Shown here: positions 1 to 28,868 of the stretch, one piece after another
Position numbering within the stretch: position 1 is the first letter of the stretch
Layout: every line of letters starts with the position of its first letter
Source: Reinekea marinisedimentorum
GTDB lineage: Bacteria > Pseudomonadota > Gammaproteobacteria > Pseudomonadales > Natronospirillaceae
Assembly: GCF_004341165.1 (NCBI RefSeq)
Contig: NZ_SLZR01000009.1
Location: 124,001-188,000, forward strand
Length of the DNA stretch: 64,000 bases
Reading direction: 5' to 3'
Notes under the pieces: generated by a model
Seen by the model: only the letters and a program-made list of their open reading frames with translations
Databases searched by the model: none
Told to the model about the DNA's origin: nothing
Translations under genes and position numbers: made by a program

Positions 1-609
1 AATTAAATGATGCAGCGCTGAGGCCACTGCGCCTTCTTCGCCGGAAAGCCAGGCGTCGATAATCATAAAGCCGGTCACTTCATCAACCCAGAACATCACG
101 TCGATACGCCCGGAAACCGGGGTGAGATCGAGCTGGATCGACATAAACAGAATGAGCAGTAAGCCCCACCAGAAGATGGGCATCGAATAGCCGGTGAGTG
201 AAATCGTCATCACCGTGTGGTCGAGCACGCTGCCGCGTTTTACGGCCGCCAGAATGCCCAGTGGCAGACCTACCAGAGCCGCAAAAACAGCGGCAAAAAA
301 CGCCAGCTCAATGGTCGCCGGGAATAGGGTTAAAAATTCGTCCATGACCGGTTCGCGGGTGACGAACGAGGTACCTAAGTCGCCTTTCAGTACGTTGCCG
401 GTATAGACCAGATATTGCTGGATGATGGGTTTATCCAACCCCAGTGTCTTTTCCATCTCGGCGCGTTGTTCTGCCGATACGCCACGTTCGCCGCCCATAA
501 TGGTGACCGGGTCGCCGGGGATCAGGTGAATCAGGGAAAAGGTCAGAATTGAGACGCCAATGAAGGTCGGTATCACCATACCCAGGCGTTTTAGAATGTA
601 TTGGATCAT
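1..609 (-). CDS. DppB-type peptide ABC transporter permease (3' part cut by window edge)
   Basis: Inner-membrane permease of a dipeptide/oligopeptide ABC importer. Translating the minus strand from the ATG at 609 gives MIQYILKRLGMVIPTFIGVS, the usual DppB/OppB start with TM1, then the family segment IHLIPGDPV followed by the GLDKPIIQQY region and the start of the transmembrane core (ATIELAFFAAVFAALVGLPL). No stop occurs before base 1, so about 203 residues are visible and the C-terminus lies outside. It follows the binding-protein gene at 682-2283 on the same strand, separated by a hairpin, as in dppABCDF operons. Family assignment is firm; the transported peptide class is not shown. Confidence 0.88.
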   Translation of the reverse strand, partial: MIQYILKRLGMVIPTFIGVSILTFSLIHLIPGDPVTIMGGERGVSAEQRAEMEKTLGLDKPIIQQYLVYTGNVLKGDLGTSFVTREPVMDEFLTLFPATIELAFFAAVFAALVGLPLGILAAVKRGSVLDHTVMTISLTGYSMPIFWWGLLLILFMSIQLDLTPVSGRIDVMFWVDEVTGFMIIDAWLSGEEGAVASALHHLI

Positions 610-7250: not shown

Positions 7251-7297
7251 AACATGCCGCTGCCTCCGGGCTTTCTGATTTGCTTACCAGCCGGCGC

Positions 7298-12977: not shown

Positions 12978-13071
12978 GGGGGCGACTTGGTTTCGACGCG
13001 GATTACAAAGCTCCAGGTGCATGTCGTGTTGGTAGCCAAACACGTAAAACCAAAGCTGCAAAACTATAGTT

Positions 13072-13113
13072 GCAAATGATGACAACTACGAAGGTTACGC
13101 ACTAGCTGCATAA
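13072..13113 (+). other. tmRNA tag-peptide reading frame (ANDDNYEGYALAA)
   Basis: Codons GCA AAT GAT GAC AAC TAC GAA GGT TAC GCA CTA GCT GCA then TAA. Together with the alanine charged on tmRNA this gives a 14-residue degradation tag. The ends match the usual gammaproteobacterial ANDDNY...ALAA tag; EGY is an extra three residues in the middle. The C-terminal ALAA recognised by ClpXP is kept. Confidence 0.92.
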
Positions 13114-13337
13114 TCCTTCTAAACTGGGCCAATAGTTGCCCGGCGGTCACTGAACTGAGCCTGATCGGTTCTACTGACTGTTACTAATTCAGGATAAGCG
13201 AAAAGGTTGCCAAGGCCGGATCGCCGACAACTTATATCCCTGGCTCCCCGAGTCGCACCTGTCCTTCGGTAACGGCAAGGGTAAACCAAAGAAGAGACTA
13301 AACATGTAGGACCGCGAGTGGCGGATTTGCGGACGGG

Positions 13338-13362
13338 GGTTCGATTCCCCCCGCCTCCACCA
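13338..13362 (+). repeat. attL: 25-bp direct repeat in the ssrA 3' end
   Basis: Sequence begins GGTTCGATTCCCCCCGCC and ends in the encoded CCA. It is identical to 18778-18802; flanking bases differ on both sides, so the core is exactly 25 bp. It covers the T-arm 3' half and acceptor strand of tmRNA. Confidence 0.92.
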
Positions 13363-13366
13363 TTAC

Positions 13367-16596: not shown

Positions 16597-16782
16597 ATGA
16601 ATCAATTAGTCACAATCAAAAAGTATTCGGAGCTTTCTGGGTACTCAGAAGAGGCTATACGCCAAAAGATTAAAAAGGGCGTGTGGCAGTTAAGTAAGCA
16701 TGTTTTTAAAGGCCCTGATGGCCGGTTGATGATTAAGGTTAAGGAGGTTGAAGCATGGATTACCAGCTCCCCCGCGGCATAA
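16597..16782 (+). CDS. Excisionase / small helix-turn-helix DNA-binding protein
   Basis: 61-residue winged-helix protein of the excisionase type: MNQLVTIKKYSELSGYSEEAIRQKIKKG is the helix-turn-helix, and the following KGPDGRLMIKVKEVEAWI is the wing and last helix. GGAGAG lies 5 bases before the ATG. Its 3' end overlaps the integrase start by 28 bases, the typical xis-int arrangement. Likely bends attachment-site DNA to favour excision and may also act on the neighbouring inverted repeat. Confidence 0.8.
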   Translation: MNQLVTIKKYSELSGYSEEAIRQKIKKGVWQLSKHVFKGPDGRLMIKVKEVEAWITSSPAA

Positions 16783-17840
16783 GCCAGCGTAACGGTATTT
16801 TGTATCTGAGTTTCTCAGTTCAAGGTGAGCGTTATAGAGAGTCATTAGGGCTTCCAGCAACAAAGCCGAATATCAAACATGCTGAACTGAGACTTCAATC
16901 AATTAAATACGAGATTTCTGTTGGGACTTTCGATTATTTGAAGCATTTCCCTAATAGCCGTAAGGCTGAAAAGTTTCGCCGGAATTCAGGTTGTTCATTG
17001 TTGGTTGCCGACTTGCTGAACGATTGGCTTAAAAGAGCTAAAGACCATTGTGCATATAGCACTTTGAAAGGTTACGCCTCAGTTATAAACTTTCATTTGA
17101 TACCAAGGTTCGGTGCGTTAACCATAGATGAGTTAACTTCTTTAATGGTGTCTGATTGGCTTTCAGATCTCAAAGTAAGTGGTAAGCGTAAAAGAAATAT
17201 TCTGATACCTCTGAGACAGGCACTCTCAGAAGCAATGCATGATGGGCTAATAGACCGAAATCCGCTGCTCACAATTAAGTCGCCGAAACATAAAACTCGC
17301 GAACCTAAGCCTTTTAATAAGCAGGAAGTAAGGGCTTTACTGAGTGCGATGGAAGGTGTTGGACGAAATTTTTATTGGTTTGCATTTGAAACAGGTTTAA
17401 GAACATCAGAGTTGATTGGTTTACGGTGGGAAGACGTATTTATAGAGTCTAAGTATATTTATGTTTCTAGAGCCTGTGTGTCGGGTAGAATCAAGGAGAC
17501 AAAGACAAGTTCTGGCACGCGAAATGTTCCGCTTTCCGAATCTGCACTGGAGTGTCTCGCTGATCAGAAAGAGCACGCAACTAATGAAGATGGATTTGTT
17601 TTCTTTGACCCGAAATCAAATAAGCGGTGGAAGACTGATCAGTTTCCAAGGAAAAGGATCTGGAAGCCTGCTGTTGAAAAGGCTGGTGTTGAATATAGGA
17701 ACCCATATCAGACAAGGCATACATACGCCTCAAAATTGTTGTCGAAAGGGGAAAACCCTCTTAAAGTAGCTCACTATATGGGGCATTCTGATTGGGGAAT
17801 GATTCGAAAAGTTTATGGAAGATGGATTGTTGATAGATGA
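16755..17840 (+). CDS. Tyrosine recombinase (integrase) of the tmRNA element
   Basis: Site-specific recombinase that inserts the element in ssrA. 361 residues. N-terminal arm-binding region (RGISQRNGILYLSFSVQGERYRESLGL), a core-binding SAM-like domain near residues 83-165, then the catalytic domain with Arg216 (ETGLRTSELIGLRW), Arg321 (NPYQTRHTYASK), His344 (MGHSDWG) and nucleophile Tyr354 (KVYGRW). The usual first His of HxxR is Tyr here, as seen in related phage integrases. A strong Shine-Dalgarno AAGGAGG precedes the ATG by 7 bases. Its stop overlaps the DUF2971 start (ATGA). Confidence 0.93.
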   Translation: MDYQLPRGISQRNGILYLSFSVQGERYRESLGLPATKPNIKHAELRLQSIKYEISVGTFDYLKHFPNSRKAEKFRRNSGCSLLVADLLNDWLKRAKDHCAYSTLKGYASVINFHLIPRFGALTIDELTSLMVSDWLSDLKVSGKRKRNILIPLRQALSEAMHDGLIDRNPLLTIKSPKHKTREPKPFNKQEVRALLSAMEGVGRNFYWFAFETGLRTSELIGLRWEDVFIESKYIYVSRACVSGRIKETKTSSGTRNVPLSESALECLADQKEHATNEDGFVFFDPKSNKRWKTDQFPRKRIWKPAVEKAGVEYRNPYQTRHTYASKLLSKGENPLKVAHYMGHSDWGMIRKVYGRWIVDR

Positions 17841-18730
17841 TTATTAGTTCATTGCAAGGTCTACAGAATCATAGATCAGATGAAGGATTGGTTTTTCATT
17901 ACACCTCACTAGATTCGTTTATAAAAATTTTGGATTCAAATGAAATTCGAATGTCCCACCTCGGATATTTAAACGACTCAAGAGAGATCTCTCAAGGTCT
18001 AAGTATATTTCAAAGAGAAATAAGCAATTGTTTGGAGAATGAAGAACTGAGGATAACTAAACTGATGGAAGAGCTACTCGGATATTTTATTTCTGATCAT
18101 AAGCCTGACATCTATGCCGCATCATTTTCTAGGCGAGGAGATTTACTAAGTCAGTGGCGCGGTTATGCTCCAAACGGTGGTCTATCATTTGGGATCGAGC
18201 TTGATAGATTAAAATCTATAGATGATGATAGGTTTTATCATGTTGAAGAGTGTATATATGATGATGTTAAAAGCCATCTAAAATCGAAAATCAAAGCAAG
18301 AGAGTTAGTTCAAGTTATTTTAGATAAGGCTACTTACCTAAAGACTGGGCAGATTCCAGATCATTCTGAAGGTGTTGAAATTAGTAATAACAAGATGGCT
18401 CGTTTAAGAGAGCTTGATAGTGAAATAGCTAAAAACATTTTTAAACTCTATGCATTATCTGCATCTATTAAAGACAATAGTTTTAGTGAAGAGCAGGAAG
18501 TTAGGATAATCTCTCATTTACTTGGAGAGAGAGAGGTTTGCTTTAGAGCTACTGACAAATTACTAATACCTTATACTTCATTTGGTATTGAAGACATAGA
18601 GATAAAGAAAATTTATGTTAGCCCAGGAATTGATTTCGAACTCAATTATAACTCTATAGTTAAATACTTTATGATTAATGGAAGACCTGTACCTGATATC
18701 TGCCCATCATCTTCAAGTTATAGGGGTTAA
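17837..18730 (+). CDS. DUF2971 family protein (element cargo)
   Basis: 297 residues with the DUF2971 hallmark sequence VFHYTSLDSFIKILDSNEIRMSHLGYLNDSRE and later YAASFSRRGDLLSQWRGYAPNGGLSFGIEL, which are the conserved blocks of this family. The biochemical function is unknown. The gene is translationally coupled to the integrase (ATGA overlap) and is the last gene before attR, the usual slot for cargo. It is clearly more AT-rich than the chromosome, a sign of recent transfer. A role in anti-phage defence is plausible from the context but is not shown by any motif. Confidence 0.75.
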   Translation: MIISSLQGLQNHRSDEGLVFHYTSLDSFIKILDSNEIRMSHLGYLNDSREISQGLSIFQREISNCLENEELRITKLMEELLGYFISDHKPDIYAASFSRRGDLLSQWRGYAPNGGLSFGIELDRLKSIDDDRFYHVEECIYDDVKSHLKSKIKARELVQVILDKATYLKTGQIPDHSEGVEISNNKMARLRELDSEIAKNIFKLYALSASIKDNSFSEEQEVRIISHLLGEREVCFRATDKLLIPYTSFGIEDIEIKKIYVSPGIDFELNYNSIVKYFMINGRPVPDICPSSSSYRG

Positions 18731-18777: not shown

Positions 18778-18802
18778 GGTTCGATTCCCCCCGCCTCCAC
18801 CA
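18778..18802 (+). repeat. attR: 25-bp direct repeat of the ssrA 3' end
   Basis: Identical to 13338-13362, ending in CCACCA. It marks the right end of the integrated element and is the original chromosomal ssrA 3' end, since the native terminator follows directly. Confidence 0.92.
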
Positions 18803-18810
18803 ATAAATAA

Positions 18811-18838: not shown

Positions 18839-19238
18839 ATTGGGCGAACGAAAGGGATCGTTCGCTTTTAACCCGTTCGGGTTCGACTGCACGTATGGAA
18901 CGTGCAGCGCTAACCTCGCCTGCGAGGTTACCCGCAGGGGCCGGGCTATGGATGGCCCGGAGCATTCCCCCGCCGTGTATAGCCGCAGGTCTTAAGCCAA
19001 AAGTGTACCCCCCCCAATAACCTCTATTCTCATAAATCGAATCGACCATGCGCCAGCCCTTGCCAGCTTGAGTGCCTATAAATTCTACGCAAGCCATAAA
19101 CTGGGCGCTGATTGAATTAAAAGGATCGCGATTACCCTTCTTTACTGACCAGAGAGAATAGATGGCACAGCGTTTAAAGGGCGGAGACTCAGGTGCAGAA
19201 ATACAAACATTGACAATCTTTGTATCCGTACCTAGCAT
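18837..19238 (-). other. Open frame of uncertain status over a structured repeat (133 aa)
   Basis: A minus-strand open frame whose C-terminal half is encoded by the structured repeat at 18871-18982; the same peptide string (MLRAIH.P.PAGNLA.EVS) recurs antisense to the second copy at 19903-20016, so that half is almost surely not a protein. The N-terminal half (about 70 residues with PFKRCAIYSLWSVKKGNRD and FMACVEFIGTQAGKGWRMV) looks protein-like and could be a remnant of a small gene. No family recognised. Listed so the 18.8-19.3 kb stretch is accounted for. Confidence 0.25.
18871..18982. repeat. Structured intergenic repeat, copy 1 (four hairpins)
   Basis: About 112 bp with consecutive stems: ACCCG-TT-CGGGT; CTGCACGT/ACGTGCAG; TAACCTCGC/GCGAGGTTA; CCGGGC/GCCCGG. 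A second copy lies at 19903-20016 on the other side of the ParD/ParE genes. Stem 2 differs between the copies but stays paired (copy 2: AGCACTGCAC/GTGCAGTGCT), which suggests that structure matters. Confidence 0.8.
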
Positions 19239-19271
19239 GATCTGTATAAATGTCTACTCTTGGAGGCCACC

Positions 19272-19529
19272 ATGCATGTTTCCCTGACTGCCGAGCTAGA
19301 GTCTCGAGTTAAAGCCAAAGTTGAAAGTGGCCTGTACAACAATGCCAGCGAAGTGATCCGCGAAGCACTGCGCTTTATGGATACACACGAAGATTGGATC
19401 CACGAAGTGAAATTGGCTCACCTGCGCGAACAACTGAAAGTGGGTACTGATCAGTTAGATAAAGGCGAAGGTATTTCCATCGAATCAAAATCTGCCCTGG
19501 ATTCGCTGTTCGACGACATTAAAGCTTAA
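19272..19529 (+). CDS. ParD-family antitoxin
   Basis: DNA-binding antitoxin of a ParD/ParE type II module, 85 residues from the ATG at 19272. TGGAGG five bases upstream is a strong Shine-Dalgarno; an in-frame TTG at 19260 is less likely. The N-terminus HVSLTAELESRVKAKVESG with NASEVIREALRFM is the ribbon-helix-helix of CopG/ParD proteins; the acidic C-terminus (STESKSALDSLFDDI-like) is the toxin-neutralising arm. The toxin gene starts 5 bases after its stop. Role: autoregulation and neutralisation of ParE. Confidence 0.9.
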   Translation: MHVSLTAELESRVKAKVESGLYNNASEVIREALRFMDTHEDWIHEVKLAHLREQLKVGTDQLDKGEGISIESKSALDSLFDDIKA

Positions 19530-19534
19530 GCCTC

Positions 19535-19834
19535 ATGCCTGCACATCAACTTGTTATAGCGCCGGCCGCCAAAGCCGACTTGAAAGACATATACCAGTAT
19601 GGGCTTCGGCAACGGGGGCAAGTCCAATCCGACAGTTACCTGGAAAACCTAAAAGACCATTTTTGGTCCCTTACTGAACAACCACTTATGGGCCCTGAGC
19701 GCCCCGAGCTGCTGCCCAGCGCCAGAAGCCTACCCATCGAAAGCCATACGCTGTTTTACAGAGTTACTGCAGATGCGGTAGAAATTATCCGTGTACTACA
19801 TGGCCGCCAAGACCCGCAGCGACACTTAAAATAG
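19535..19834 (+). CDS. ParE-family toxin
   Basis: 99-residue ParE/RelE-superfamily toxin: LVIAPAAKADLKDIYQYGLRQRG is the helical start, then the family patterns ARSLPIESHTLFYRVTADAVEIIRVLHGRQD. ParE toxins inhibit DNA gyrase, whereas RelE relatives cut mRNA; the RVLHGRQD ending favours the ParE branch. It forms an operon with the antitoxin gene 5 bases upstream. The pair lies between two copies of a structured repeat, so it may have arrived as a unit and may stabilise this accessory region. Confidence 0.9.
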   Translation: MPAHQLVIAPAAKADLKDIYQYGLRQRGQVQSDSYLENLKDHFWSLTEQPLMGPERPELLPSARSLPIESHTLFYRVTADAVEIIRVLHGRQDPQRHLK

Positions 19835-20398
19835 CTCAAGAGGCTTTTCTTCTTGGCACCGACTGAGCAACCCTCGGACAATTTTTCATATTGATAATTG
19901 CCACCCGTTCGGGTTAGCACTGCACGTACGGAAAGTGCAGTGCTAACCTCGCTTGCGAGGTTACCCGCAGGGGGCGGGCCATGGATGGCCCGGAGCATTC
20001 CCCCCGCCGTGTATAGCTAAAGACCCCCTAGCCAAAAGGAGATGGGCTTTTTTATTGGTCAGCGAAACGCAGGAAACGTTTGCTTTCAACCTGTTCGGGC
20101 TCGGTGGCGCGTAGTGAGCGATCGGCCCCAATCAAGCATGTGCCGGTTGCCTAGCAGCGCTAGCGCTACCTTCACTCCACCTTTTAATGTCGCAGCGGTG
20201 CCGCAGAAAAGAAAACGGCTTTTTGTATTGCTCGAGTGTTAGAGGTCACATAGCCCGAAACTTGACTGTTTTTCGCTCACTTTTCAGGTAATACCCCAAG
20301 TCGTATACTGTTGCAGACGAGTAATACTCGGCCATTTTTAGCTAGGCCGCAGCAATGCTGTTGGGGTTAAAGTGAAAAATCATAAATCGAGACTGTGC
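19835..20398. other. Intergenic stretch with repeat copy 2 and a degenerate third repeat
   Basis: Contains the second structured repeat (19903-20016), then 20048-20100, which resembles the bases 18833-18885 around the start of copy 1 (TTTTTTATTGG, GCGAA, AACC-GTTCGGG elements). TATACT at 20304-20309 is a possible -10 box for the NERD gene with a poor -35. No convincing gene lies here. Confidence 0.5.
19903..20016. repeat. Structured intergenic repeat, copy 2
   Basis: About 114 bp, closely similar to 18871-18982, with the same four stems in the same order. Copies 1 and 2 flank the ParD/ParE operon in the same orientation. Recombination between them would delete the module. Confidence 0.8.
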
Positions 20399-21391
20399 AT
20401 GATCGTAAAAGATAAAAAGGATATCGAAGCGTCAAACCAATTTGAAGCTGCCGGAAATAGGCAAGAAAAGTCTATCGCATTTTATTTGCGCAGAGCTTTT
20501 AAAATGCACGAGGAAGTATTCGTATTTCACGATCTTAATATCACCTATGGCGGCGAGTTTGCCCAGATCGACCACCTAATTCTTTATAGGTATGGGTTTA
20601 TCATTATTGAATCCAAAAGCATTTCAGGTGAGGTTAAGGTTAATGCAGAAGGCGAGTGGAGCAGAAGCTACCAAGGCAAGTGGAAAGGAATTTCATCTCC
20701 TCTCAAGCAAGTAGAGCTTCAAGCAGATCTTCTCAAAAAATTATTAGATGCAAACGCAAAAAATATATTGGGAAAAATTCTGTTTAACACGCTTCAGTGT
20801 CGATTTGGTGGGCGCCGCTGGGATTTTCTATGTGCGATTTCAAGTAGTTCAATAATTAGCCGAGAAAATGCACCTAAAGACATAGCAGACAAAATGGTTA
20901 AGTCTGAGTTCGTTTCGGAAAAAGTTATCGAAATTATGAACTTGCCGAAGAACATTATCGAGAAAGCTAAGAGCGTAATGGATGAGCGCGCAGCCTTTCC
21001 GGCGGGTGAGTTGAGCAATATCTGTAAGTTTCTCTTGGCGGTTGACAAAAAAACATTAGAACTCAAAGCTGTAAAAGAACAAAACAACCAATCTATTCGA
21101 GAAGTGGCGCAAGTTGTGGACGTGCCGCTACAGCCAGAGCCAGTGGGTAGCGCAACTAGTCCTACTGCCAGTATTCGTTGTAAACAATGCGTTACCAAAT
21201 CTCAGCTAGAGGGTAAGTGGGGTAAGTATGGCTACTATGTCCACTGTGAACAGTGTGGAACCAATACATCCATGAAAACTCATTGCTCATCTTGTGAATC
21301 TGGCAATGTTCGCATCAGGAAGTCGGGTGCAGAGTTCTTTGCCCGTTGTGAGGATTGTGGCGTAGAAGTACTGGTGCACAGAAATGTGTAG
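20399..21391 (+). CDS. NERD-domain nuclease-like protein with C-terminal zinc ribbons
   Basis: 330 residues from the ATG at 20399; an in-frame GTG at 20372 is an alternative. The N-terminal NERD domain shows FAQIDHLILYRYGFIIIESKSISGEV, with the Asp and the E-x-K of a restriction-endonuclease-like fold, then SPLKQVELQADLLKKLL. A linker leads to a cysteine-rich tail: RCKQC, HCEQCGTNTSMKTHCSSCESGN and ARCEDCGVEV, i.e. two topoisomerase-type zinc ribbons. NERD proteins are predicted DNA-processing enzymes often met in mobile or defence regions. It is followed by an HNH gene on the same strand. Cellular target unknown. Confidence 0.82.
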   Translation: MIVKDKKDIEASNQFEAAGNRQEKSIAFYLRRAFKMHEEVFVFHDLNITYGGEFAQIDHLILYRYGFIIIESKSISGEVKVNAEGEWSRSYQGKWKGISSPLKQVELQADLLKKLLDANAKNILGKILFNTLQCRFGGRRWDFLCAISSSSIISRENAPKDIADKMVKSEFVSEKVIEIMNLPKNIIEKAKSVMDERAAFPAGELSNICKFLLAVDKKTLELKAVKEQNNQSIREVAQVVDVPLQPEPVGSATSPTASIRCKQCVTKSQLEGKWGKYGYYVHCEQCGTNTSMKTHCSSCESGNVRIRKSGAEFFARCEDCGVEVLVHRNV

Positions 21392-21459: not shown

Positions 21460-22302
21460 ATGTCCGAGATTAAACAAAGATTCACCGATTATCTGACGGT
21501 ACGAAATAAGCCAGGAAGTAAAAAGGCTGCTTCATATATCAAGGCCTTGGAATGGCAAGAAGATATGATTAAGTCTTCGCCACAAGGCTTTAATGAGTTT
21601 AAATCAATCTGGCAATTGCATGACTTGGATCGTTTAGCTGAGCTGTATCAGTTTGTAATACAGGAGTCAAAAAGTTGCTCAACACCTTGGGATATTGATG
21701 GCATTCCTCGAAGCTATTTGAGAAATGGTTTTTGCTCGGCTGCGCTGGCCAAGTTTCATCAGTTTTTGATGGAATATTTAGTTGAACTTAACGCATTAAA
21801 ACATTTAGATTTGAAAGGAGCGCGAGACCTAAAAATTAAAGCTAAGCCAGACTATAAGGTTTTGTCTGAAAATTTGGATGGCCTACATTTAGCTGAAGGG
21901 TTGGAAAATAAAGCACAAGTAAAGGTGCGGGTTAACCAAAGTGCTTTCCGAACCATGGTATTGAACAACTTTAATCAAGCATGCTGTATAACAGGGCTAC
22001 GTATTCCTCAGTTGAATAGGGCAAGCCATATAGTTGGTTGGGCGGAACGGGCAGAGTCACGTTTAGACCCCAGAAATGGTCTGTGTTTATCGGCTACTTA
22101 CGATGCTGCATTTGATCGGCATCTGATAGGGTTAGATGATGATTATCGTCTGATTTTGTCGAAAGACTTAAAAGACTATAGGGACGACAATTCGTTTAAA
22201 GAATGTTTTCTTTCAATTGAGGGTAAGCGTATTCAGCTTCCAACGCAATATATGCCGAGACTGGATTACATTGAGCATCATAGAGGTAAGGGGAGCTTTT
22301 AA
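21460..22302 (+). CDS. HNH endonuclease family protein
   Basis: 280 residues. The C-terminal half has an HNH-type nuclease motif: CCITGLRIPQLNRASHIVGWAERAESRLDPRNGLCLSATYDAAFDRHLIGL, with His in ASHIVGW, Asn in RNGLCL and His in DRHLIGL. The N-terminal half is helical and unlike any family I recognise; it may bind DNA or a modified base. It is the type of gene annotated as a restriction-like HNH nuclease. It lies 68 bases after the NERD gene and ends 8 bases from the convergent helicase gene. No methyltransferase is in the same transcript, so a classical restriction pair is not evident. Confidence 0.82.
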   Translation: MSEIKQRFTDYLTVRNKPGSKKAASYIKALEWQEDMIKSSPQGFNEFKSIWQLHDLDRLAELYQFVIQESKSCSTPWDIDGIPRSYLRNGFCSAALAKFHQFLMEYLVELNALKHLDLKGARDLKIKAKPDYKVLSENLDGLHLAEGLENKAQVKVRVNQSAFRTMVLNNFNQACCITGLRIPQLNRASHIVGWAERAESRLDPRNGLCLSATYDAAFDRHLIGLDDDYRLILSKDLKDYRDDNSFKECFLSIEGKRIQLPTQYMPRLDYIEHHRGKGSF

Positions 22303-22310
22303 CTAAAAGC

Positions 22311-25190
22311 TCACCCTACAACCCCAACCAACCGTGCAAAAGTCGCCATCCCCTCATTTGCAATCAAATCCCCATACTCGGGGTTATTGGCAACAAGCCG
22401 ATAGCTGCCATCAGAGTTCTTCTTTACAACCCGTAAAAGATATTGGTTGTCTCCACCCTCATCCTGGCGCTCAATCGCCATAGTCAGATTTGAAATGGAG
22501 CCTGCATTATTGCTGGTGATGCGTTCCAGTAGCAGTAGGTCACCATCCTGGATCGGATTTTTACCGCCATTCATTGAGTTGCCGCTGGCGCGTGCCAGAA
22601 ACAGCCGGCTGTTGTCTTTACGATTATAGTCAGTGGGGATCTCCATGAGTTCTGCCTCATCGGCAGTACCGTTTTTAAAATGCCCGCACGCAATTTTCAG
22701 GTTTGGGAAGTAAGGCAGCTGAACAACATTGCTTTCTGGCTGCTTTGCTTCGACCTGAGGTTTGTCTTTCTCTTTTTTGCGTGAAATTCTGTCGCTGTAC
22801 AGTGCGAGCAGAAGTTCAACCAGTTCCTGCATCATTCTTTCAAGCACATTAATGTGCGCAGCATCGATGTTGATGTTTGCTTTGAAAACACCATGTTCGA
22901 CGGTAAACCATGCTTGCGAATGATTTTGGTCTTTCTTGCTCAGGAAATTGATCGGGTTACTCAACCAGTATTTATGCCAGCGGCTGTCGGTGCTGCTGCA
23001 GTTTTGCAGATCAGCCCTTATATCCGGTAGTAGCTCCGGGTGGCGGTCAAAAATTTCGCGGCTGCGCTGTGCCAGGGCTTCTGTTGTTGGTGGCGTACGC
23101 AGCCCATCCAGCTCAAGAAAGGCTTCGAGCAGAATCGGTTTAAAGCTCTTTGCCATTGAAGTAGTTTCAATGCCCTGCAGCAAAAAGTTCCGATAGACAG
23201 GGTTTCGGGTTATTTTCTGAATTTTTGCGTCATCTTCCTGGTTAGCGACCAGTTCAAACCAGCTGCCTTGTTGCTCTCGCATTTTGGTGAGCTTGAAACC
23301 ATCGTAGAAAAATTCACTCGCGCTTGGCCGGCGGCCAAGGTATTCGCTTAAGCTTTGGTAGGCTTGTATTGCGGTTTTGCCCATTCGAACTAAGTCGGCC
23401 CAGAAGTCGATCAGCTCTGGTGCAATATTTACGAAGCAGCCGTCGGTTAATTCTGGTGTCTTTTTAAGTTTGTTAATTTCTGTCGCACTTGGGTGGTTTT
23501 TGCCAAGCAGCGCCATTGCCCGGTTTAAATAGCTTTTGTGGTTGCCAATAAAATCCAGAACGACCAGATGCGTTTTATCGGTTTCTGGCGACTGACGCAG
23601 GCCGCGTCCCAGTTGTTGCAGGAATAAAATTTTCGATTCTGTTGGGCGTAAAATCAGTACTGTGTCTATAGCAGGTAAGTCTGTACCTTCATTGAACAGA
23701 TCGACAGAGAACAGAACGGAGAGCTTGCCTCTATTGAGTTGTTCCAGCGCTTCATTGCGATGAAGCGTTGAACCTGAATATACCGCAGCAGACGGAATTC
23801 CTTCCTTATTAAACCAGCTGGCCATAAAGTCTGCGTGCCGTTTGCTTATGCAAAAAGCGAGTGTTCTTTGCTGGTGGTGCTTATGCCAGTGCTCGGTAAT
23901 ATGAGTGGCGCGTTTGTTGGTGGCAAAAGCATTGGTGGCTTCGTTAGGGTCAAAGCGCCCATTGCGCCATGGCAGTGCCTGGTAATCGACCGTTTCATCA
24001 TTGATGCCGTAATAGTGAAAGGGCACCAGGATTTTGTCTTCAATACCATTAATAAGGGTGCGTTCAAAAACCCGGTTGTTATCACACAGCTGAATAATGT
24101 CAGCCTGGTCTGTGCGTTCCGGGGTGGCGGTTAAGCCGAGCAGGAATTTTGGTTTGAAGTGATTCAGTAGCTGGCGGTAAGTATTGGCGGTGGCGTGGTG
24201 AAATTCATCAACAATTATGTAATCGAAGTGTTCCGCAGAGAACTGTTCCAGATGGCTTTGCTGGCCGATGGTTTGAACCGAGGCAAACAGAAAATCACTT
24301 TCCTGCTGTTTCTGTTTGCCATTGTAGAACCCAGTGGTTTGCTCCGGCATCAACTGTGTGAAGGTTCTTGCCGCCTGAGTCAGAATTTCTTCACGGTGCG
24401 CAACGAATAGCACGGTTTTAGCGCCTAGCTGCTGAACATCAAAGGCTGAAAGCCAGGTTTTCCCCATGCCGGTTGCCAGTACCACAAGGCCGCGTTTAAA
24501 GCCTTTGTCTCGTGAGCCTTGCAGGGCAGTGAGTGCCTCTAATTGTGCGTTATTGGGTACGGCTTTTGGTTCGTCAATGGCCCCTACTTGCTGTAGTGCT
24601 GGTTTAACCTCACTTCGGCGCTCTATATAATTGCTAATCCAATGATCAGTCAGTTCAACGGTTTGAGAGTGGTTAAATACAGCATCAAACTGATTAAGAA
24701 TATTTTTAAACTCAGGTTCTTTGGTGTTTTGGTCGTAGCGCAGGCACCATTCAATTGCACTGGTTAGTGCCGCTTCACTGATGTTATTTGAACCCACGAA
24801 GGCACAGCCGTTGTACTCTGTGTCATCCTCATTCCTGACAAATATATAAGACTTCATGTGGAAGCTTTGGCGGCCCTTGCATACAAACATTTTTACCTGA
24901 GCACCACTTTGCTGTAATAGCTGTAGATCGCGCAGAGCAGTGGGGTCGGTGATGCACATATAGTCGGAACTGACCAGTTTAATGCTGGCATTACGCTGAA
25001 GGGCGTCTGATAACGCCTCAAAGAGCAGGCGAATACCAGATTTCTGAATGAACGAAACGCTAATGAAAATTTCGTTCGCTCTGTTGATGGCATGCACCAG
25101 CTTTTCCAGCAGTTGATCTTCACCGCCGGTTGTTAATTTTGATCCGTAGCTGAGTGGGTTACTTTTTTGGTTCATACGTTTATTGCTCAA
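22311..25190 (-). CDS. PLD-nuclease / SF2 helicase / S24-like fusion protein
   Basis: 959-residue multidomain protein. Residues 25-150: phospholipase-D-like nuclease half-site (His111, Lys113 in FHMKSY, then FVGSNNISEAAL). Residues 210-560: superfamily 2 helicase with Walker A ATGMGKTW (239-246), DEFHH (328-332), TATP (354-357), and QQLGRGLRQ (525-533). Residues 560-820: unknown helical region. Residues 822-959: LexA/S24-type domain with Ser872 in GNSM and FLARASGNSMNGG. The gene is coupled to a methyltransferase (11-base overlap using a TTG start with AAGGA five bases before; an ATG at 25175 is the alternative). Nuclease plus helicase plus methyltransferase points to DNA defence or restriction. 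No close named system is recognised. Confidence 0.85.
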   Translation of the reverse strand: MSNKRMNQKSNPLSYGSKLTTGGEDQLLEKLVHAINRANEIFISVSFIQKSGIRLLFEALSDALQRNASIKLVSSDYMCITDPTALRDLQLLQQSGAQVKMFVCKGRQSFHMKSYIFVRNEDDTEYNGCAFVGSNNISEAALTSAIEWCLRYDQNTKEPEFKNILNQFDAVFNHSQTVELTDHWISNYIERRSEVKPALQQVGAIDEPKAVPNNAQLEALTALQGSRDKGFKRGLVVLATGMGKTWLSAFDVQQLGAKTVLFVAHREEILTQAARTFTQLMPEQTTGFYNGKQKQQESDFLFASVQTIGQQSHLEQFSAEHFDYIIVDEFHHATANTYRQLLNHFKPKFLLGLTATPERTDQADIIQLCDNNRVFERTLINGIEDKILVPFHYYGINDETVDYQALPWRNGRFDPNEATNAFATNKRATHITEHWHKHHQQRTLAFCISKRHADFMASWFNKEGIPSAAVYSGSTLHRNEALEQLNRGKLSVLFSVDLFNEGTDLPAIDTVLILRPTESKILFLQQLGRGLRQSPETDKTHLVVLDFIGNHKSYLNRAMALLGKNHPSATEINKLKKTPELTDGCFVNIAPELIDFWADLVRMGKTAIQAYQSLSEYLGRRPSASEFFYDGFKLTKMREQQGSWFELVANQEDDAKIQKITRNPVYRNFLLQGIETTSMAKSFKPILLEAFLELDGLRTPPTTEALAQRSREIFDRHPELLPDIRADLQNCSSTDSRWHKYWLSNPINFLSKKDQNHSQAWFTVEHGVFKANINIDAAHINVLERMMQELVELLLALYSDRISRKKEKDKPQVEAKQPESNVVQLPYFPNLKIACGHFKNGTADEAELMEIPTDYNRKDNSRLFLARASGNSMNGGKNPIQDGDLLLLERITSNNAGSISNLTMAIERQDEGGDNQYLLRVVKKNSDGSYRLVANNPEYGDLIANEGMATFARLVGVVG

Positions 25191-25770
25191 TAACTTCCTT
25201 TACAACAATGGCATTCAGCCACTTCTCTTGTTCTCGACCTGGTCTCTGGTCATTTGTTATCCACATGTTTTTCAGGGCTAAACCAGACCCGGAAATAAAA
25301 TCCCTTAGTCGCACCTCTGTCGCATTGGTAAAATTGCGCCCATTTCGACTGACGTCTTCGTTCCCATATTTAAACGAGCAATAAATAATGCCGCTCTGTT
25401 TTAGTTGGTTTGCCAGGTGCTTGAACGTTGCTGGTAGTTCTGGAGCCGGGACATGCAGTAAGCTGGCACAGGCCCATATAGCATCCGCAGGATGCTCTGT
25501 TTTAAACTCCAGAAAGGTCGCAACCTGAACAGCTTGGCCAGATAATTTGCTTGCAGCATCGGCAAGTGGTTTGCTGGCATCGAAGGCGGTTACGTTGTAG
25601 CCAAGCTCTGTAAAGGCTTTGGTATCGCGCCCGCTGCCGCAACCTGCGTCTATTATGTGCGCGCCAGTAGTGAGCAGAGGCAGGAACTGATCGTACAGTG
25701 GCTGCATGTTGACGTTCACCGTGCTCTCTATAAAGGCTTGTGCGTTCAGGGTGTAGTATTTGTTAGACAT
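25180..25770 (-). CDS. Class I SAM-dependent methyltransferase
   Basis: 196 residues with a Rossmann-type SAM site: AHIIDAGCGSGRDTKAF (motif I), VTAFDASKPLA (motif II), and ADAIWACASLLHVPAPELP (motif IV region). It resembles small TehB/UbiE-like methyltransferases, not classic N6-adenine DNA methylases, as no DPPY/NPPY motif is present; in the motif IV position it has ACASLLHVP. It is first of a two-gene unit and overlaps the helicase start by 11 bases, so both are expected in fixed ratio. Substrate (protein, small molecule or nucleic acid) cannot be told. Confidence 0.85.
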   Translation of the reverse strand: MSNKYYTLNAQAFIESTVNVNMQPLYDQFLPLLTTGAHIIDAGCGSGRDTKAFTELGYNVTAFDASKPLADAASKLSGQAVQVATFLEFKTEHPADAIWACASLLHVPAPELPATFKHLANQLKQSGIIYCSFKYGNEDVSRNGRNFTNATEVRLRDFISGSGLALKNMWITNDQRPGREQEKWLNAIVVKEVIEQ

Positions 25771-25856: not shown

Positions 25857-26216
25857 CTAAGCCAACGTTAATATATAGGCTTGCTCAATCTTTTCGGCTG
25901 AAAACACCTGCGCTGGTGAGTCCTTAAACTCAACAACAAGCGCCACTCCTGATATGTACCAGCATTCATACTCTTTCTGCTGGGTTAGTAAATCAATATT
26001 GTTGCTCAGGTAGCTGTGTACTTCGAAGAACGCTTTTACTTTATCGATCTCAACCTCAAACACGCTGCTCATTTGTTCAACGCTGAGTGAGCGTTCTTCG
26101 TTATGTTGCTCTAGAATCAAGGTTTCGTCGTTGGTATCCCAGTAGGTGCTCTTCGGCAATTTCTGGTCGATTAGGTTGCACACCTCAAAGTAGCGATTAA
26201 TCCTGTTGGTGTTCAT
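25857..26216 (-). CDS. Hypothetical protein (119 aa)
   Basis: 119 residues starting MNTNRINRYFEVCNLIDQKL, acidic, with a predicted helical first half and a beta segment CWYISGVALVVEFKDSPAQVF. No signal peptide, helix span or catalytic motif recognised. It lies between the methyltransferase and VIT/VWA genes on the same strand, 41 bases after the latter's stop; it may be part of that transcript. Confidence 0.6.
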   Translation of the reverse strand: MNTNRINRYFEVCNLIDQKLPKSTYWDTNDETLILEQHNEERSLSVEQMSSVFEVEIDKVKAFFEVHSYLSNNIDLLTQQKEYECWYISGVALVVEFKDSPAQVFSAEKIEQAYILTLA

Positions 26217-26257: not shown

Positions 26258-28417
26258 TTAAACCACCTCAGTAAACGCTTCTTCAAACAACGCATTGAGC
26301 GTTTCTTCCGAATACTCGCTCTCGGCATAAATTCTTTTAGCCCTAGCCTTACACCATGCCGCCACAGCATCAGATAGAATCTGCCAGTCTGCATCCATCC
26401 AAAGCAGAATCGCCGGCAGTAGCAGCGTCTTATCCAATTCTATCTGGCTCAGCTCAAATACAACTTCTTCATCCAGCCCGTTAGCCTCCAGCCAGAACAA
26501 TTCTACATGGGTTTTGGCTGTGTATTTTTTGCGGTCAAAGTCGATATTGGCTTTTTCCAGTAGCTGCTCAATGATGCCTTCATAAGGCAAGTGCACGCTC
26601 TTGGTGATGTCTATTTTTGTATCCCCATAGGATGCTCTGCGCAGGAGCGCCGGGGTTTCCAAATGATCCGGTTCTGCTGTTGTTCTTCCGGTTCGCAAAG
26701 ATGGGTGCAATTCTATTAATTCGGGTGCGGCTTCCATTGGGCTGCTTGGCGCGCTCGCGTAAAAGTCGTCGCAGGTGTCTGCCATAAAGCTTGGAGTCAT
26801 CTGGCTGGCTTGTTTTAGTACCGGTAAGCCATCGCTGCCGGTTACGGTTTCACTATCCACAAACACAAAGCTGGTGTATTCACTGACAATCTGCAGCTCT
26901 GTGGCTAATGTTGTTGCTTGGCCATCGTTAAGGTTGGGTAGCTGCTTGAGTGTGGCGAGCTTGATCAGTGCATCTGCACTTTCATCGCTGGCAGCCTGCA
27001 TTGGTAAGGTGAATAGTGGTTCGTTGTCAGGCACCGTTTGGACTTTCCCGGGTCTCAGTTCATGCCCGGTGAAGTAGGCGGGTACTGTAGAGTTTTCAAA
27101 TAGCGTTGCAGGAAGGTAATGCCAGTCTGAAATTTCATCTTTAAGTTCAGCTCGCACTGGCGTGCTGCGCACCTGGTCAATCAGGTTGCCGATCTGTGCA
27201 TCCATATTGCTGCGCGGGTTGAGCATGAGTGCATTCCCGGCGCTACCTCGGGATAGGGTTTCCAGCAGCTGCGCATCCACGCCGGTGCCTACGCCGATGC
27301 AGAAAATCCGGCAACCCGCTGTAATGGCTTTGGCTGCAAGTGTGTTAACGGCGTTGTTTGGGTTCCAGACTTGAGCATCGGTAACCAGCAGTATGTCGCC
27401 ACTGCCGTTTTCTTTGACTTGCTCTAATGCCTGCTCAAGCGCAGCAAAGAGTTCTGTACCGCCCATGTTGGCCTGAATGTTGTCGATGTATCTGTAGAGT
27501 TTTTTGCGGTTGGTGTCGGTCAGCTGCTGTAAGCCGGAAAACAGACTGTTGGTGGTGCTACCAAATTTTATGATGTTCAGTTTGTCTTCGGCTTCGAAGT
27601 GCTCAATGGCCTCGCTGATCCCCAGCTTTGCTTCGTTGATTGCTGCGCCTGTCATGGAGCCGGAGCAGTCGATAACCAGCTGTACACTGGTTCTTCTTCT
27701 GGCTTGCCCGGTGGCCGGCGCTTCTAATAAGGCAATGCCGTAGTGTTTTTGGTTTGCTTCGGAACGGGCGGTGAACAACTGGTTGGTGGGCATGCTTGAG
27801 GCCCAGCTGAACATGAAGGTACGGTCCAGTTTTGCCTGGAAGCGCCAGCCATCGTCTTGTGCTTTTATGGCGGTGTTGGCCTGCAGCTTTGCTTCGGGGT
27901 GGTTAGCCAGCCGAATGGTGCCGCTCAGGTTGTAGTCGGCGAAGATGGAGCTGCGCGGCTGGTTGTGTAAGGGTAATGGCGAGTGGCCGTATTTTTCCCC
28001 GATCACCGTGGGCAGGTAGTAGTGCCATAGCCCCTGTTTCATGAATATCAGTGATGCGACTTCCAGTTCCAGTATGGCTTTCTCGCCCGGGGGCAGGTTA
28101 CCGGCATTGACCTGGTACAGGCCGTCACCCAACAGCTCCAGCAGGAAGCTACGCTTGCCACTGGCAATGCCTTCTTCATAGCTTGCAGAGGCCTGCTGGC
28201 TTGCCTGTACCTTGCCGGTAAAGCGTTTGTCGTTGATTAGAATGTTAAAACTGGTGACAACCGCATCGCTCGGTAATGGGAATTGATAGACCGCCTCTAT
28301 GATGTCGTCGGTGTCGTTGGTAAAGCTTTGTTTAATGGTGGTACGCGCAACAATGCCGTCGATGGTGATGTTCACTTCTGCCGATTTCAGTGGCGATTCC
28401 ATAAATACTTCAGTCAT
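26258..28417 (-). CDS. Cytoplasmic VIT and VWA domain protein
   Basis: 719 residues from the ATG at 28417 (AAGGA eight bases upstream; the open frame extends a little further). N-terminal VIT domain (about 1-125: SAEVNITIDGIVARTTIKQSF, IEAVYQFPLPSDAVVTSF), then a von Willebrand A domain with an intact MIDAS motif DCSGS (Asp250, Ser252, Ser254) and later DILLVTDAQVW. The C-terminal 250 residues are unassigned. There is no signal peptide or membrane anchor, unlike sortase-linked relatives. Metal-dependent adhesion-type protein binding is expected; partner unknown. It overlaps the MerR regulator by 8 bases, so it is very probably regulated with or by it. Confidence 0.85.
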   Translation of the reverse strand: MTEVFMESPLKSAEVNITIDGIVARTTIKQSFTNDTDDIIEAVYQFPLPSDAVVTSFNILINDKRFTGKVQASQQASASYEEGIASGKRSFLLELLGDGLYQVNAGNLPPGEKAILELEVASLIFMKQGLWHYYLPTVIGEKYGHSPLPLHNQPRSSIFADYNLSGTIRLANHPEAKLQANTAIKAQDDGWRFQAKLDRTFMFSWASSMPTNQLFTARSEANQKHYGIALLEAPATGQARRRTSVQLVIDCSGSMTGAAINEAKLGISEAIEHFEAEDKLNIIKFGSTTNSLFSGLQQLTDTNRKKLYRYIDNIQANMGGTELFAALEQALEQVKENGSGDILLVTDAQVWNPNNAVNTLAAKAITAGCRIFCIGVGTGVDAQLLETLSRGSAGNALMLNPRSNMDAQIGNLIDQVRSTPVRAELKDEISDWHYLPATLFENSTVPAYFTGHELRPGKVQTVPDNEPLFTLPMQAASDESADALIKLATLKQLPNLNDGQATTLATELQIVSEYTSFVFVDSETVTGSDGLPVLKQASQMTPSFMADTCDDFYASAPSSPMEAAPELIELHPSLRTGRTTAEPDHLETPALLRRASYGDTKIDITKSVHLPYEGIIEQLLEKANIDFDRKKYTAKTHVELFWLEANGLDEEVVFELSQIELDKTLLLPAILLWMDADWQILSDAVAAWCKARAKRIYAESEYSEETLNALFEEAFTEVV

Positions 28418-28811
28418 CTGTGTTGTCCTTTTCTGCTGCTGCAATGAGCGCCACGATCTGTTTGCTGAGTGTGCGTAGCTGCTCCGAGTTCATGCCGGCC
28501 TTTTGCGGGTCTATGGTGAGCTCTACACCGGCGGCCAGGTGAATGTGCGTGAGTACGCGCAGGCTGCCGGGCTCTGCTTCAATGGCCGGCGCTGCCGCTT
28601 CACCTTTCAATATCCGCTGAATGGCATCCAGCGAAAGCCCGGAACTTTGCCACTTCTTAATCGTCAGCAACTGCTCTACGTGGGTCTCGCTGTAGCGTGC
28701 GGTTTTGCGGCTGCCTGTGGGGCGGTCGACCAGGCCCTGCTGTATGTAGTAGCGCACGGTGCGGGCGGGTATGTCCGTTAGGGTGCTCAGTTGTTCCAGT
28801 GTGTGTTCCAT
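28410..28811 (-). CDS. MerR-family transcriptional regulator
   Basis: 133 residues from the ATG at 28811 (MEHTLEQLSTLTDIPARTVRYYIQQGL). The MerR winged helix DIPARTVRYYIQQGLVDRP is clear, followed by SETHVEQLLTIKKWQSSGLSLDAIQRIL. The open frame reaches 28868, but that codon falls in a perfect -35 box (next entry), so 28811 is the better start. The effector domain is short and lacks conserved cysteines, so metal sensing is not indicated. It is translationally coupled to the VIT/VWA gene. Confidence 0.88.
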   Translation of the reverse strand: MEHTLEQLSTLTDIPARTVRYYIQQGLVDRPTGSRKTARYSETHVEQLLTIKKWQSSGLSLDAIQRILKGEAAAPAIEAEPGSLRVLTHIHLAAGVELTIDPQKAGMNSEQLRTLSKQIVALIAAAEKDNTDD

Positions 28812-28839
28812 GGTCGGTCCGGGTGTGGGGCTTGGGGTA

Positions 28840-28868
28840 TTTATAGTAAATGACAGTATAGGTGTCAA
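28840..28868 (-). promoter_or_regulatory. Sigma-70 promoter of the MerR-VIT/VWA operon
   Basis: Read on the minus strand: TTGACA (28868-28863), a 17-base spacer, TATAAA (28845-28840). The overlapping CTATACTG and TGTCA elements around it could be an operator. Expected transcription start is near 28833, 22 bases before the chosen ATG. Confidence 0.8.

Follow-up and report, generated by a model that had tools for sequence, protein, structure and literature searches.

The window, a stretch of 64,000 nucleotides of Reinekea marinisedimentorum DNA, carries a pair of reverse-strand genes encoding a class I methyltransferase and a nuclease-helicase protein (Table 1). Our analysis confirms both open reading frames, their coordinates and the 11-base overlap between them, provided that the TTG codon is the start of the 959-aa protein. 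An alternative in-frame ATG at residue 6 lies 4 bases past the methyltransferase stop, so the two genes are tightly coupled with either start. Pfam matches also bear out the NERD, HNH and ParDE neighbours named in a preliminary description of this DNA. The HNH_2 gene is a recurrent neighbour of the nuclease gene, and is probably an independent restriction gene. An upstream 119-aa open reading frame (25857-26216) was considered as a part of the system and rejected, having no phmmer match among the open reading frames of 112 loci and no Pfam match.

Table 1 Features of the locus, with positions numbered from the first base of the window and residues on the full-length protein
Feature	Position	Strand	Remarks
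tmRNA	12978-13362		
ParD and ParE	19260-19834		Pfam
NERD protein	20372-21391		Pfam
HNH_2 endonuclease, 280 aa	21460..22302	+	Pfam; convergent, 8 bp from nuclease gene end
Predicted restriction nuclease, 959 aa, PLD-SF2 translocase-coupler-like-S24	22311..25190	-	TTG start
S24/UmuD-like domain, residues 815-959	22314..22748	-	Peptidase_S24 833-946, 2.5e-8, 34.1 bits vs cut-off 23.3
Coupler-like region, about residues 581-817	22740..23450	-	No Pfam family; mostly helical in model
SF2 helicase/translocase core, residues 212-532	23595..24557	-	
PLD nuclease domain, residues 32-165	24696..25097	-	PLDc_2, E 4.6e-8, 33.4 bits vs cut-off 27
Class I SAM-dependent methyltransferase, 196 aa	25180..25770	-	ATG start; motif I DAGCGSGRD; no motif IV pattern

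The 3' end of the tmRNA gene is repeated at 18778-18805 (27/28 bases), and a 5.4-kb, integrase-bearing island lies between the two copies. The methyltransferase-nuclease pair is located outside these att sites, 3.5 kb beyond them, and the window holds no further att copy near the pair besides those at 13338 and 18778. The adjoining VWA gene had no match in 18 other relatives, and an empty insertion site was consequently not found.

Pfam matches confirm that PLD, SF2 helicase and LexA/S24-type domains are joined in one 959-aa chain, whose helicase core is made up of ResIII (212-359, 4e-42) and Helicase_C (432-532, 6.4e-15), with Walker A K244, DEFHH at 328-332 and QQLGRGLR at 525-532. The SauUSI structure 7clg was matched at E 1e-89, with an alignment covering residues 14-629, compared with 2.7e-20 for RadD in the same search; the SF2 core also resembles XPB. 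H111 and K113 align with the FHxK motif of SauUSI, where the H119A mutant is nuclease-inactive (PMC7913695, in excerpt), and an N-terminal PLD HxK pattern is present in 75/75 relatives read in one frame. Identity to 41 aligned relatives is 46-57%, far above chance. Residues 591-808 are helical in the AF2 model, and a Foldseek alignment to 7clg_B (983 columns including gaps) spans the coupler-like region, while VIA aligns only 14..600. Judged by sequence and fold comparison, the 959-aa protein is a SauUSI-type PLD nuclease and SF2 translocase with a C-terminal S24 domain. The earlier view of the architecture as undescribed thus fails for the PLD-helicase half, which belongs to the known SauUSI family of type IV restriction enzymes; the S24-ended, methyltransferase-linked combination is a variant of that family.

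Enzymes of the SauUSI family normally end in an SRA domain (PMC7913695, in excerpt), and SauUSI itself is a nuclease-ATPase-coupler-SRA chain in which a single polypeptide is sufficient for activity (PMC3874153, in excerpt). The window protein has no DUF3427/SRA match and ends in S24, so target selection in window-type proteins would fall to some other part. In relatives, S24 is placed between coupler and SRA: a DUF3427 match follows S24 in loci L041 and L054, and the modelled C-terminal end of L041 matches both lambda repressor/LexA and SauUSI SRA structures. A VIA search with the whole window-protein model returned no S24 or SRA structure among the 50 matches listed. An SRA-like tail is kept in 49/71 S24-type proteins read in one frame, comprising 48 that were scored and L066, whose tail the scoring missed; one of the 71, L104, carries an internal deletion. 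In the midpoint-rooted tree, the SRA group was set by a length rule and includes L059 (1080 aa, without SRA, probably with an over-called start), and the two rows labelled as lacking S24 inside the S24 clade, L038 and L090, are broken copies.

The survey of linkage covered 80 genome loci, those among 274 whose S24 was most similar to that of the window, together with one viral locus, a sample biased toward close S24 kin, in whose selection the methyltransferase played no part. A methyltransferase is present at 75/81 S24 loci, in the same chain as the nuclease at 36 and as a separate gene at 39, and the remaining 6/81 are contig edges or truncated genes. The proposed coupling of the two genes is therefore well founded, and among untruncated S24-type genes we saw no homologue that lacks the methyltransferase. 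At SauUSI-like loci without S24 (19 controls with 5-kb flanks, some ended by a contig edge, and with L155 frameshifted), a stand-alone methyltransferase adjoined the nuclease in 0/19 and a methyltransferase-HNH fusion was present in 2/19; the other 17/19 had no methyltransferase. L154 has a weak methyltransferase match (2.1e-5), to a protein of 304 aa whose gene lies 1.9 kb from that of the nuclease, and L151 a separate 191-aa protein with a weak S24 profile match (8.7e-4).

The methyltransferase is also paired with HNH nucleases, with S24 present or absent. The HNH part of L157 scores 34.2 bits against a Pfam cut-off of 22, that of L162 just short of it at 21.8. The L218 HNH nuclease, without S24, and its S24-bearing counterpart in L166 share 81% identity over 340 residues, indicating that S24 is dispensable in kin. 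At L184 the methyltransferase stands beside a PLD-SF2 nuclease without S24 (PLDc_2 below cut-off, 23.6 vs 27). Of the methyltransferase relatives on viral contigs, 10/14 have neither nuclease in the stretch fetched. The S24 domain is therefore an add-on, and the methyltransferase family has other contexts.

In the S24 domain, the putative cleavage site is A834-C835-G836, aligned to the C-G of UmuD, and the putative nucleophile is S872. The serine and the A-C-G site are kept in 86/86 alignment rows, the site reading I-A-C-G in all 86 and M-A-C-G in L166. The catalytic-lysine position is occupied by R920, with Arg in 86/86 rows; hhalign pairs this lysine with R920 at a probability of 97 for a UmuD-type template (7 rows) and of 32 for a LexA template (1 row). 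We considered the invariant K924, close to R920 in sequence, as the catalytic base, but both hhalign runs place the lysine position at R920. With Arg at this position in every row, S24 may have lost its protease activity or may have it in changed form. In the AF2 model, pLDDT is <50 for loop 835-837 at the cleavage site, meaning that its placement is not predicted. The arginine, this loop and the window-type proteins that end in S24 without an SRA domain are all consistent with a pseudo-protease whose role is dimerisation or ligand binding, and which might stand in for SRA as the sensor of DNA or of a protein in window-type enzymes. We regard this as a real, though minority, possibility: an invariant serine and A-C-G site would hardly be expected of a purely structural remnant, and K924 is near enough in sequence that it could serve as base.

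The reading that we favour as probable, from sequence and fold comparisons, is an accessory restriction system directed against phages or plasmids, with S24 control and a linked methyltransferase partner. Weighing against it are the arginine at the lysine position, the missing SRA domain of the window protein, the lack of strong LexA boxes, the kin that do without S24 and the other contexts of the methyltransferase. As in SauUSI, the nuclease would dimerise via its nuclease domains, translocate on DNA at the expense of ATP and then cut or shred incoming DNA (PMC7913695, in excerpt). Less surely, S24 would be the control switch. LexA and UmuD self-cleavage is stimulated by RecA on single-stranded DNA, and cleavage at C835-G836 might be stimulated likewise. 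In SRA-bearing relatives, S24 lies exactly where the motor/nuclease part meets the target reader, so self-cleavage would free nuclease and motor from S24 and, where present, from SRA. Tentatively, this could be an off-switch by which a damaged host chromosome escapes cutting, and would amount to restriction alleviation built into the enzyme itself. The same anatomy would also suit an on-switch, by which phage infection or DNA damage frees an abortive, DNA-destroying nuclease, and this S24 would set free both the HNH and the PLD-SF2 nucleases that are joined to it. However, cleavage in SRA-bearing forms would remove the target reader, which in SauUSI activates the ATPase on binding (PMC7913695, in excerpt). 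The two directions appear about equally likely, each of them tentative, with a slight lean to the off-switch. A broader and rather doubtful extension of S24 control is that methyltransferase and S24 form a portable control cassette for DNA-destroying nucleases, in which the same two modules would frame a nuclease of either kind, the translocating PLD type of SauUSI or an HNH type unrelated to it. Here S24 would be a self-cleaving Ser-Arg, not Ser-Lys, switch that ties restriction to RecA and DNA damage, and the methyltransferase would set or reset this switch, or read the SAM level.

Matches of the 196-aa protein to methyltransferase families lie at about 1e-11, and its nearest solved structure, 3e23, is listed as uncharacterised. 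SAM motif I follows G[AC]G[ST][GA] in 78/80 linked methyltransferases. A pattern search of their first 235 residues for motif IV ([DNS]PP[YFW] or PC[QN]) gave 0/80, and the window sequence contains neither PP nor PC. The chain is roughly as long as a catalytic core, leaving scant space for a target-recognition domain. That none of the 80 has a motif IV pattern of the DNA-amino or C5-cytosine type weakens the suggestion that this enzyme marks self through ordinary DNA methylation; its most likely substrate is the nuclease itself, some cofactor or a non-standard position in DNA, and it would not set ordinary m6A, m4C or m5C marks. It seems unlikely that the two genes form an ordinary restriction-modification pair of the kind seen in single-chain type I/ISP enzymes, with host DNA shielded by the methyltransferase and unmodified DNA cut by the nuclease. 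Close linkage and single-chain fusion (36/81 loci) do resemble such pairs, and modification-dependent enzymes would be expected to stand alone (PMC11037411, in excerpt), but the motif IV result and the core-sized chain speak against it, as do the SRA-like tails of the 49/71 one-frame proteins and the kinship with SauUSI, which recognises modified, not unmodified, DNA (PMC7913695, in excerpt).

Occurrence of the system is sporadic: it was not found in 37/37 other relatives or in 391/397 other genomes of the phylum. It occurs on a plasmid record (H1), and also near other restriction genes. Across 79 operon starts, scanned from 250 bp before to 30 bp into each, strong LexA boxes were found at 0/79, with 0.2 expected from mononucleotide shuffles, and the loose pattern CTGN10CAG at 7/79, against 4.2 expected. 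LexA-box control of the operon was rejected on this result, which gives no tie to the SOS regulon. Although the RadD- and XPB-like core and UmuD/LexA-like domains, familiar from DNA-damage biology, would fit a chromosomal DNA-repair helicase-nuclease, this housekeeping role is highly improbable given the weaker RadD score, the patchy distribution, the plasmid copy, the occurrence near other restriction genes and the lack of strong LexA boxes at the operon starts. The restriction or defence role proposed at the outset is supported by the SauUSI homology, by intact nuclease and motor motifs and by the sporadic occurrence.

DNA-shredding restriction enzymes need restraint during host DNA damage. 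EcoKI, according to an excerpted source, is restrained from outside by ClpXP. If the favoured reading is true, a LexA/UmuD-like domain at the motor-reader joint would be a direct link between damage sensing and restriction, and point mutants at the invariant cleavage site and at the invariant Lys-to-Arg exchange could test it. Close linkage to a methyltransferase, with 36 fusions, in kin of an enzyme that should not depend on one also raises the question of the methylated target.

Among known systems, the likeness to MADS and BREX is weak: the methyltransferase matches PADLOC mad2 (1.5e-13) and the neighbouring NERD protein matches MAD6 (3e-6) and PglW (2e-5), but these are single-domain matches, with no component set among the 8 window proteins scanned. 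What sets the pair apart from single-chain type ISP enzymes (LlaBIII, LlaGI) is an N-terminal methyltransferase of roughly core size without motif IV, a PLD-type nuclease and the presence of S24. RadD and EcoAI HsdR-type SF2 helicases share the helicase core, with weaker scores than SauUSI, and to our knowledge they do not have the PLD-S24 combination. With UmuD, LexA and phage repressors the protein shares, judged by sequence and by the modelled fold of the L041 domain, an S24 fold, a Ser nucleophile and an A/C-G site N-terminal to the domain; it differs in being fused to a translocating nuclease, in the invariant Arg for the catalytic Lys and in having no LexA box. SauUSI-type enzymes cut 5mC/5hmC DNA with ATP. 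The window protein has their PLD nuclease with the same FHxK, their SF2 ATPase and their domain order, extending to SRA in relatives, whereas S24 replaces SRA in the window or precedes it in relatives, and a methyltransferase accompanies an enzyme type expected to stand alone.

The gene pair in the window encodes a class I methyltransferase and, downstream of it, a 959-aa effector protein in which the PLDc_2, ResIII/Helicase_C and Peptidase_S24 domains each exceed their curated Pfam cut-off. The preliminary description coupled the two genes through an 11-base overlap, which our analysis confirms, although an alternative start codon would leave a 4-base gap instead. A profile search of genome contigs matched 274 relatives with the S24 domain, and we examined 81 loci, comprising the best 80 of 274 and one viral contig. 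Single chains combining methyltransferase, PLD, SF2 helicase, S24 and SRA (the C-terminal reader of modified DNA in the type IV restriction nuclease SauUSI) make up 36 of these loci, including one with an internal deletion (L104), while 35 have a one-frame PLD-SF2-S24 protein and a separate methyltransferase gene, located upstream in 33 and downstream in two. Two further loci pair the methyltransferase with an HNH-S24 protein, and two are frameshifted copies with a methyltransferase. The methyltransferase is missing only from six loci, three at contig edges and three with truncated effectors, so that every uncut S24 locus of this set has one (75/75), in keeping with the linkage first proposed. 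The slot is filled by either subfamily A, the type in the window, or subfamily B, with one locus (L176) holding both. The pair is real and widespread in Proteobacteria; the 80 genome loci are gammaproteobacterial (45), betaproteobacterial (34) and alphaproteobacterial (1).

None of 19 control loci, which are SauUSI-like and have no S24, has a stand-alone methyltransferase adjoining the nuclease. Two controls carry methyltransferase-HNH fusions of 567-575 aa beside their SauUSI-like genes (L157, 7780-9507; L162, 2348-4051), with HNH_4 scores of 34.2 and 21.8 bits, respectively, against a Pfam cut-off of 22. A second SauUSI-like gene lies right behind the S24-type gene at L043 (4398-7523; PLD-helicase-DUF3427 by Pfam) and L069 (4956-8081). 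Several betaproteobacterial fused copies, L060, L064, L071, L077, L094 and L096 among them, have nearby genes that read as gyrB-, dnaN-, dnaA- and type I restriction-like.

Within our genome samples the system is rare, with S24 carriers in 6/397 other genomes of the phylum and 6/368 of the class. Across both samples, 11 other genomes have the S24; of the ten whose loci were examined, nine have the methyltransferase and one (G725) is cut by a contig end, the eleventh (G476) having a split gene. This S24 was found in none of 37 relatives searched. The pair was initially placed next to an integration hotspot; the tmRNA 3' end is duplicated around an integrase (28-nt copies, 27 identical), but the pair itself lies outside this att pair, beyond the second copy. 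G+C content is 0.40-0.50 in the measured parts of 13.3-26.2 kb and 0.52-0.57 in the flanks. Homologues of the HNH_2 neighbour occur at 14/86 S24-type loci, and 13 of these have it no more than 2.5 kb from the system; the 19 controls, whose flanks are shorter, have none. Two controls have homologues of the NERD protein: the one in L158 (at 7159-8097, E 5.6e-81) immediately adjoins an ordinary SauUSI-like gene, and the one in L147, a weaker match (E 6.5e-16), is close to the SauUSI-like gene there. The VWA protein was looked for in 18 other relatives and found in none.

Features of the window around the gene pair
Feature	Position	Strand	Remark
tmRNA 3'-end copy	13338-13365		
Tyrosine integrase	16755-17840		inside 5.4-kb island bracketed by tmRNA 3'-end copies
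DUF2971 protein	17837-18730		inside the same island
tmRNA 3'-end copy	18778-18805		
86-nt direct repeats	18886-18971, 19919-20004		93% identical, flanking ParDE genes
ParDE genes	19260-19834		
NERD protein	20372-21391		
HNH_2 endonuclease	21460-22302		convergent neighbour of effector
959-aa effector	22311-25190	(-)	PLDc_2, ResIII/Helicase_C, Peptidase_S24
Methyltransferase, 196 aa	25180-25770	(-)	generic methyltransferase families by Pfam
VIT/VWA-domain protein with MerR regulator	26258-28868		

A PDB search with a profile built from five S24 domains retrieved UmuD (8gmt, E 0.0036); in this alignment C835-G836 falls on the C-G of UmuD, and S872 on the serine of GDSM. In hhalign, 87 S24 rows matched seven UmuD-type rows with E 4.7e-11 (probability 97) and one LexA row with E 4.9e-4 (probability 32). 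Residues I833, A834, C835, G836, F838, S872, M873, R920 and K924 are each invariant across 86 S24 rows, and it is R920 that pairs with the template lysine, UmuD-type and LexA alike, which we take to be the catalytic base of this family. Arginine at this place in LexA slows cleavage and need not abolish it. The invariant arginine may mean that the S24 protease is slow, triggered or dead.

By analogy with SauUSI, a nuclease dimer would translocate with ATP and cut DNA. Self-cleavage of S24 would split the protein between its motor/nuclease part and its reader end. We lean slightly towards such cleavage turning restriction off, as restriction alleviation; that it instead frees an active nuclease is slightly less favoured. 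Since the DNA motif IV pattern is present in none of the 80 linked methyltransferases, whose length is about that of a catalytic core, ordinary self-marking by the methyltransferase appears doubtful.

In the nuclease/helicase-part tree, a single branch (SH-aLRT 95) separates the S24 proteins from the rest once two broken copies are set aside, another (SH-aLRT 100) separates the fused proteins, and the window protein pairs with that of Shewanella ulleungensis (SH-aLRT 95). Three loci combine the methyltransferase with HNH-S24 (L053, L120 and L166). In module trees, of which that of S24 has few columns and weak support, both modules of L053 are nearest to Oceanisphaera/Oceanimonas-type systems and both of L120 to a Pseudoalteromonas system. 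The L166 methyltransferase is also nearest a Pseudoalteromonas system, its S24 being a long branch. This pattern suggests that methyltransferase and S24 move as a unit and that the nuclease is swapped. The HNH protein of plasmid unit L218, which has no S24, shares 81% identity across 340 residues with the HNH-S24 protein of L166, and their methyltransferases are 69% identical; by this sequence comparison, S24 is a detachable module.

Wider kin of the methyltransferase were found in 27 plasmid records. In three of six examined, the gene immediately downstream codes for a nuclease of the same HNH family and S24 is absent: Acinetobacter lwoffii, where cas1f is adjacent, A. baumannii, where BREX genes are adjacent, and Pseudoalteromonas HL-AS2. 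Another, H56, has a same-family HNH 3.6 kb away, adjoining a DEAD/DEAH helicase gene; in H52 and H66, an annotated HNH gene ~1.1 kb off on the opposite strand did not match the HNH query. The two-gene plasmid units (L215, 3992-5631; L216, 4001-5509; L218, 4980-6667) are possibly an unnamed defence unit of their own. In the A. baumannii copy, the match to the methyltransferase is split in two and carries no annotation. Among 14 viral contigs with a methyltransferase match, L179 is the contig on which L120 lies and carries HNH-S24, in L180 an HNH overlaps the methyltransferase end, L185 has a broken methyltransferase with an HNH somewhat downstream, and in L184 the methyltransferase overlaps a PLD-SF2 protein without S24; the other ten matched neither the HNH nor the PLD-SF2 query. 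Across these plasmid and viral kin, the core therefore seems to be methyltransferase plus nuclease, with S24 added in one large branch.

In the open-licence literature on S24 with PLD, helicase or methyltransferase, S24/LexA-like anti-phage proteins, S24 peptidases with HNH in defence systems, DUF3427 defence, SauUSI with SRA, LexA or methyltransferase fusions and HNH/methyltransferase defence islands, titles and abstract openings held no description of the S24-PLD-helicase-methyltransferase architecture, nor did passages of PMC7159879, PMC3874153, PMC10853773 and PMC11037411. PMC11037411 leads one to expect modification-dependent enzymes without a partner methyltransferase, and PMC7641849 suggests that additional methyltransferases have a precedent where modified DNA is read. 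The preliminary description regarded the pair as a candidate undescribed system, which holds in part: the PLD-helicase nuclease belongs to a known family, and the novelty is the S24 graft together with the linked methyltransferase.
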